Source of the DNA: Echinarachnius parma
Lineage: Eukaryota > Echinodermata > Echinoidea > Clypeasteroida > Echinarachniidae
Direction of reading: 5' to 3'
Assembly (NCBI GenBank): GCA_037951105.1
Contig: JBAMJV010003351.1
Span: forward strand, 1-64,000
Length of the DNA: 64,000 nucleotides
In this document: one piece after another, positions 9,096 to 58,454 of the stretch
Numbering within the stretch: position 1 is the first letter of the stretch
Layout of the letters: each line of letters starts with the position of its first letter
The notes under the pieces: model-generated
What the model saw: the letters and a program-made list of their open reading frames with translations, nothing else
Told to the model about the DNA's origin: nothing
Databases searched by the model: none
Program-made: the position numbers and the translations under genes

Positions 9096-9293
9096 CGCTC
9101 GGCCTAGGAGATGCCCAATTCCTTCCTTCCCTGAGTTTGGTCAATGTTTCTGTTGAATTGTGGGAAGAGTTTTCGTACCACAAGAGGCAGTACCTTGTTG
9201 CTGCTGGGCCGAGCAGTGTCCAGATCTTTCAGTTTTCGGAGCAAGGTTTCAGGCCCCTCGGCGATCCGCTTCTCTCCATTTACCAACTGGACA
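9096..9293 (+). CDS. Exon 1 of model: EAR repeat 1
   Basis: The acceptor follows a T-rich tract and the donor is GTAAGT. It is a phase 1-1 exon. It reads [12 protein letters not shown], then an EAR unit with [16 protein letters not shown] and [11 protein letters not shown], the usual pattern of a YLVAA strand followed by a second strand ending in an aromatic. The first codon is split, so at least one exon lies upstream. Confidence 0.85.

Positions 9294-58454: not shown

Follow-up and report, generated by a model that had tools for sequence, protein, structure and literature searches.

EAR repeats (Pfam EPTP) are found in the LGI proteins, TSPEAR and ADGRV1. The EAR heads of LGI1 bind protein partners, and TSPEAR carries an N-terminal thrombospondin-type laminin G domain. 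The NIDO domain occurs in matrix proteins and is accompanied in the nidogen/tectorin family by G2F, EGF, VWD or ZP domains, while F5/8 type C (F5/8C, discoidin) domains are frequent binders of lipid, glycan or collagen and usually carry a flanking disulphide cysteine pair. The long secreted eggshell proteins Nasrat, Polehole and Closca of insects are presumably TSPEAR-like. The main text of one paper contains none of the terms TSPEAR, EAR, domain, laminin and repeat. In phage TP901-1, residues 40–63 of the receptor-binding protein (BPP) form a trimeric β-prism neck in which three chains are interlaced (PMC3893620). An animal protein, MYRF, has a trimer part that resembles the triple β-helix of phage tailspikes (PMC8326128).

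The locus described here lies in a 64,000-nucleotide stretch of the genome of Echinarachnius parma, which was analysed as a whole and is called the window below. Mitochondrial features of the genome indicate an echinoderm: in COX1, TGA is read as Trp, ATA as Ile at conserved sites, and AAA as Asn in FPRMN[N]MSFW, where the gene's single informative AAA codon lies, and cox1 is followed by tRNA-Arg, a gap of about 300 bases matching nad4L in size, and cox2. The predicted protein has EAR repeats in common with LGI, TSPEAR and ADGRV1, but differs from them in carrying a propeller at either end of a long stalk. NIDO is common to it and to nidogen, tectorin and MUC4-like proteins; in contrast to nidogen and tectorin, a Pfam search of the model found no companion EGF, G2F, VWD, AMOP or ZP beside NIDO at E ≤ 0.1. 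No account of this domain architecture was found in the open-access papers searched; TSPEAR and echinoderm did not occur together in any of them, and among the matches listed EPTP and echinoderm co-occur in one paper, on GPCR origins in fungi.

A splice-aware dynamic programme combined with hand curation yielded 27 exons on the forward strand, between positions 9096 and 58454 (Table 1). Joined, they make up 7307 nt in a single frame, encoding 2434 amino acids and a stop, with AG at all 27 acceptors, GT at all 26 donors and consistent phases. The sequence-only reading had proposed one giant gene of 27 exons in one frame of about 2,434 codons with agreeing phases; our independent model gives the same numbers, and the uninterrupted frame is consistent with a single gene. 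The raw run on the forward strand, with a codon table taken from exons picked by eye, comprised 38 segments. Eleven of these (at 8829, 9605, 11026, 11910, 24661, 25562, 25927, 42003, 42220, 42536 and 45686) were discarded by hand because they were simple repeats, parts of transposons, copies of exons or strays, and the borders of exons 11, 20 and 22 were shifted upon reading of the sequence. That such a frame is hard to obtain by chance, as had also been argued, was borne out by a control over region 9000–55990, in which the codon table came from exon 27 alone and the splice matrices were generic. The real strand scored 578.6 (37 segments), compared with 83.4 for the reverse strand and 2.4–17.9 for 12 Markov-1 sequences. 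The real-strand run recovered 22 of the 26 known exons exactly and overlapped all 26, together with about 11 extra, unvetted segments.

The gene lacks its 5′ end here: exon 1 opens in phase 1, and the first base of the window is also the first base of its contig (C3350), a contig end. No convincing upstream exon was present within 1–9095. A scan of these positions for a signal-peptide exon by ATG and donor returned weak candidates alone (for example at 8299, with a weak donor), none of which was accepted. The ATG segment at 8829 was likewise rejected as an exon, because similar sequence recurs elsewhere in the window, at about 18139–18384 and, less alike, at 38741–38952. A large nested inverted and tandem repeat with units of about 404–417 bp occupies 660–4460; its arms (833–2218 and 2903–4288) are 95% complementary.

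Table 1. Parts of the predicted protein and the exons that encode them (window positions).
Feature	Position	Strand	Basis or content
N-terminal EAR propeller, residues 1–388	9096–17519	+	exons 1–7; Pfam EPTP
Exons 1–4	9096–9293, 11260–11393, 12016–12169, 13766–13928	+	N-terminal EAR
Exons 5–7	14498–14607, 16135–16314, 17293–17519	+	N-terminal EAR
Acidic lead-in, helix-like by eye, then stalk section 1 (4 repeats)	18882–24542	+	stalk HMM
Exons 8–11	18882–19309, 20132–20283, 20756–20881, 24417–24542	+	lead-in and stalk section 1
F5/8 type C (discoidin) domain	28271–32018	+	Pfam; flanked by phase-1 introns
Exons 12–14	28271–28440, 29813–29959, 31862–32018	+	F5/8C
Stalk section 2 (2 repeats)	33173–38139	+	stalk HMM
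Exons 15–16	33173–33294, 37992–38139	+	stalk section 2
NIDO domain	40856–44814	+	Pfam; flanked by phase-1 introns
Exons 17–20	40856–40986, 41287–41574, 43090–43227, 44658–44814	+	NIDO
Highly acidic stalk section 3 (20 repeats)	46683–57143	+	stalk HMM
Exons 21–26	46683–46796, 47772–48313, 48759–48870, 49276–49636, 51998–52175, 54356–54467	+	stalk section 3
Exon 27	56023–58454	+	5′ part stalk section 3, then linker and C-terminal EAR
Linker, helix-like by eye, cysteines 2017 and 2023	57144–57317	+	translation, within exon 27
C-terminal EAR propeller and stop	57318–58454	+	Pfam EPTP; LGI1 by phmmer against PDB

All the domains named in the sequence-only reading, two terminal EAR regions together with F5/8C and NIDO, scored above their Pfam cut-offs. 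EPTP scores 46.9 bits at the N-terminus (E = 2.9e-12) and 75.8 bits at the C-terminus (E = 2.6e-21; cut-off 21), and seven blades were counted by eye at both ends. By phmmer, the N-terminal propeller has no PDB relative at E ≤ 1, and the C-terminal propeller resembles LGI1, whose chains it matches (5y2z, E = 2.6e-5). The F5/8C domain reaches 100.6 bits (E = 9.4e-29; cut-off 28.2; profile positions 2–127 of 127), and phmmer places it nearest to factor V/VIII-type and neuropilin domains among PDB chains, with lactadherin also matched (best E over these chains 4.1e-38). Its region (residues 666–820) has one cysteine, so the usual flanking disulphide pair is absent. NIDO scores 164.6 bits (E = 3.3e-48; cut-off 25; profile positions 2–185 of 186); NIDO exons are common in this genome, with 48 matches, four of which are the window's own domain. 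Pfam detected neither LRR nor LamG in the model or in the N-terminal heads of the two paralogues described below. The whole protein has 12 cysteines across 2434 residues and no transmembrane stretch (highest 19-residue Kyte–Doolittle mean 1.46), which agrees with the earlier suggestion of a putative secreted adhesive or matrix fibre.

The stalk consists of 26 repeats of about 43 residues, cut by hand, in which short V-x-V and G-x-L patterns alternate. An HMM made from these repeats has a 43-residue consensus and detects 28 stretches in the protein: the 26 repeats, each scoring at least 28 bits, and two noise matches at 0.3 bits or less. The long stalk section spans 859 residues and contains 135 D+E compared with 35 K+R. 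F5/8C is set between repeats 4 and 5, directly upstream of a QTITG motif, and NIDO between repeats 6 and 7, directly upstream of a QTVTG motif; the phase-1 introns that bound both domains on either side are a signature of exon shuffling. Within stalk HMM matches the commonest intron site is phase 1 at QTIT/G (the stroke marks the intron), accounting for 5 of 10 introns in the window gene and, in the uncurated paralogue models, for 5 of 15 on contig C4479 and 7 of 22 on contig C127.

Several further elements were seen in and around these exons. Exon 11 and the NIDO exons 19 and 20 have degraded partial copies beside them, at about 25530–25632, 41690, 42003–42036 and 44010–44650, which represent local exon duplication. 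Intron 15 contains a 158-bp tandem repeat (35023–35807; 5.0 copies, 97% matches), with related sequence at 36483–36942 and, by frame reading, near 13214. On the reverse strand of intron 20 (45002–46271) there is a Tc1/mariner-type transposase in two open frames, one with DDE_3 (5.9e-19) and HTH_Tnp_Tc3_2 (1.5e-10), the other with HTH_29 (2.7e-9).

Searching the genome (1.2 Gb, 14,790 contigs) with exon 27 revealed combined stalk and EAR matches on the two contigs C127 and C4479. In the gene models made there, reading by eye gives the order signal-peptide-like exon, EAR head, long stalk, EAR tail; both models are uncurated and contain stray segments, and the one on C127 has taken in an adjacent helicase-like gene. 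EPTP was above cut-off in all four paralogue EAR parts (27.7–50 bits, some stray segments having been removed). The C4479 paralogue, with its signal-peptide-like start, shows no N-terminal laminin G domain of the TSPEAR type by Pfam. The stalk HMM matched throughout both stalks, 30 times on C4479 and 34 times on C127; several of these matches are weak or lie outside the stalk. No match to the F5/8C or NIDO domains of the window gene was found at E ≤ 0.1 in six-frame open frames of the paralogue regions (80 and 70 kb), and consecutive stalk matches are spaced by at most about 31 residues, which leaves no room for either domain. Two further EAR–stalk–EAR genes without detected F5/8C or NIDO are thus new here, and what had been read as an isolated mosaic belongs to a set of at least three such genes in this genome. 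Since both paralogues have the EAR–stalk–EAR order, F5/8C and NIDO sit inside an otherwise shared body, and we infer from the gene models that they are probably additions in one family member, made by phase-1 exon shuffling. The locus is a genuine gene whose domains stand in an unusual order and which extends a plainer gene family.

On C127 (L019, 7929–9869), a 188-bp unit is present in 10.5 tandem copies over the paralogue stalk exons, and C4479 has 2.7 copies of a 190-bp unit. These arrays suggest that stalk length is still changing through duplication of exon units. The C127 array is also a candidate stalk length polymorphism. Two other contigs, C1823 (L002) and C7531 (L003), carry another EAR-repeat gene at 95% identity, as alleles or recent copies; no stalk was seen within the 3 kb read. 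The helicase-like exons adjoining the C127 paralogue (C127:125116–138412, reverse strand) are presumably of the HELQ/POLQ type.

The stalk repeat had been described as novel. It is not wholly so, because receptor-binding and tail-fibre proteins of phages are among the matches to its profile; that the repeats appear to have relatives, with a phage receptor-binding protein ranked first, is also new here. As a single sequence the stalk had no match in the PDB. A profile (A1) of the 26 window repeats, most of them from section 3, was run on 177,635 PDB sequences and gave 20 matches at E ≤ 10, headed by residues 36–62 of TP901-1 BPP (E = 1.4e-5). This protein, in various forms, accounts for seven of the ten best matches (1.4e-5 to 4.6e-5); the others are ‘Major structural protein 1’ twice (5e7t and 5e7f, 4e-5), which we take to be a lactococcal phage protein, and ‘orf22’ (9efk, 2.3e-3). 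Later tail-fibre entries (1pdi 0.25, 5lye 0.26, 9f4a 0.37, 4uxe 7.8) stand among others that are not from phages, dockerins and Awp1A for example, and the matches are highly redundant, coming down in essence to TP901-1 BPP plus two or three further proteins. The alignment with BPP spans about 27 of the 43 repeat positions, with the GTVNGVDI part outside, and the pattern aligned to the β-prism neck reads V-x-x-x-G-x-x-T-I-x-G-x-K-T-F-x-x-x-V-x-V-x-G-x-L-T.

A second profile was built from 24 of the 64 paralogue stalk matches, selected by length and score. Because the window profile had served to pick them, the second profile is independent of the first in its letters but not in the selection of its members. 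Of its 16 PDB matches, the best 11 comprise A1's ten and the long tail fibre subunit 9f4a (E = 1.1e-4), and the TP901-1 BPP neck is found at E = 2.6e-5. A profile of the reversed repeats gave a single match, an outer membrane protein (E = 2.9). Pfam BppL_N stayed below its cut-off of 25.8 in the window, where it appears in one of three stalk sections (best 19.2 bits, E = 9e-4), and in all four chosen paralogue pieces (best 23.5 bits). The PHROGs family phrog_10512, a virion structural protein, matched weakly (E = 1.3e-3 and 3.5e-4), and both this and the BppL_N matches were used as leads, nothing more. Whereas TP901-1 has one neck, the window stalk has 26 repeats in tandem, and in contrast to BppL/BPP no phage head domain is reported in the window protein. 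MYRF resembles the stalk so read in having a phage-fibre-like part within an animal protein. Unlike MYRF, the window model has no transmembrane stretch, and Pfam detects no Peptidase_S74, the intramolecular chaperone (ICA) of MYRF and tailspikes.

Relatives of the stalk were also sought in viral, bacterial and archaeal sequence. In IMG/VR, 4 of 26 candidate stretches encode relatives, whose letters are partly given, because the selection patterns include DGTVDGID and ITGTKTFQ. Three of them (L034, L035 and L036, the latter two nearly identical) contain a 16-residue stretch followed by VVKLTGNQSIAGVKTF; the fourth, phage contig L037, has variants of both stretches at wider spacing and also contains Peptidase_S74. 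The stalk HMM matches the four at E = 2e-15 to 2e-9, the best of 200 shuffles reaching 0.027. At least 120 viral stretches contain the motif QTI[ST]GxKTF; among the matches listed, 119 of 120 have it in an open frame of at least 60 residues. A profile scan of IMG/VR with A1 was set aside as too variable. Of 144 pattern stretches from bacterial and archaeal genomes, none was confirmed, by a method that catches close relatives only. Against named phages in GenBank, tblastn with a real stalk piece returned two records (E = 0.1 and 0.8), and a consensus-like query returned 13 (best E = 0.02).

A secreted adhesive protein could also carry a stalk folded as a monomeric β-solenoid or β-roll, the phage-like motif then being a convergent β-turn pattern. 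The alternation of V-x-V and G-x-L would fit such a fold, and Bactofilin, which we take to be a monomeric β-helix, appears below the Pfam cut-off (E = 1.7e-3); moreover, the likeness to phage necks covers about 27 positions and its PDB matches are mostly one protein. However, phage fibre-type proteins come out on top with the window-only profile and again with the paralogue-only one, but not in the reversed control. Once the motif is masked, 14 of 122 viral frames among the matches listed still match the stalk HMM, compared with 0 of 122 shuffled frames and one match, again among the matches listed, with the reversed HMM. We consider the monomeric fold unlikely, although it deserves serious weight.

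The model itself could be at fault, fusing two or more neighbouring genes, for instance an EAR plus F5/8C gene and a NIDO–stalk–EAR gene. Introns are long, a Tc1-type transposon lies in intron 20, and such errors do occur, because the programme joined a neighbour to the C127 paralogue model. Yet the 27 exons form one open frame with agreeing phases, stalk repeats flank F5/8C and NIDO on each side, and the EAR–stalk–EAR order is common to both paralogues, so that a fusion seems highly improbable. Hardly credible, too, is a decaying or unexpressed gene: the incomplete copies found next to exons 11, 19 and 20, the intronic Tc1 element and the start that was not found would suit a pseudogene, but 2434 codons run without frameshift or stop, the borders are canonical at 27 acceptors and 26 donors, and the domain scores are high.

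The reading we favour, with confidence slightly above even, is that of a secreted EAR–stalk–EAR adhesion or matrix protein from a family of paralogues, whose 26-repeat stalk would form a homotrimeric β-prism rod. The likeness to the phage neck and the anatomy of the chain, in which a head, a helix-like lead-in, an acidic shaft, a helix-like linker and a second head follow each other, together point to such a rod. Each repeat would fold into a short interlaced β-prism resembling the neck of the phage receptor-binding protein, and three chains would thereby wind into a stiff rod, perhaps 50–100 nm long by general fibre geometry. The helix-like segments adjoining the stalk ends could start or cap the trimer. 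Such a rod would display three EAR propellers at each end, with F5/8C and NIDO knobs projecting sideways, and may serve, via many weak contacts, as a bridge between cell surfaces, within the matrix or in a secreted coat. Given what is known of the EAR, F5/8C and NIDO families, adhesion or matrix linkage is the likely role of the predicted rod. Phase-1 exon shuffling would have added F5/8C and NIDO to a stalk that grew by duplication of exon units.

More tentatively, and with less than even confidence, we propose that an animal family took up the trimeric β-prism module of phage tail fibres, through ancient transfer or shared descent, as an exon-sized unit. This unit would have been repeated to about 25–30 copies and capped with EAR propellers, one member gaining F5/8C and NIDO, to give a trimeric multivalent rod. 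If this is true, animals make some of their matrix or adhesive rods from the interlaced trimer module of phage tail fibres, and such rods grow longer via exon duplication. The family would then join MYRF on the short list of animal proteins with phage-fibre-like parts, and would amount to extracellular linkers of a new class, both stiff and multivalent.
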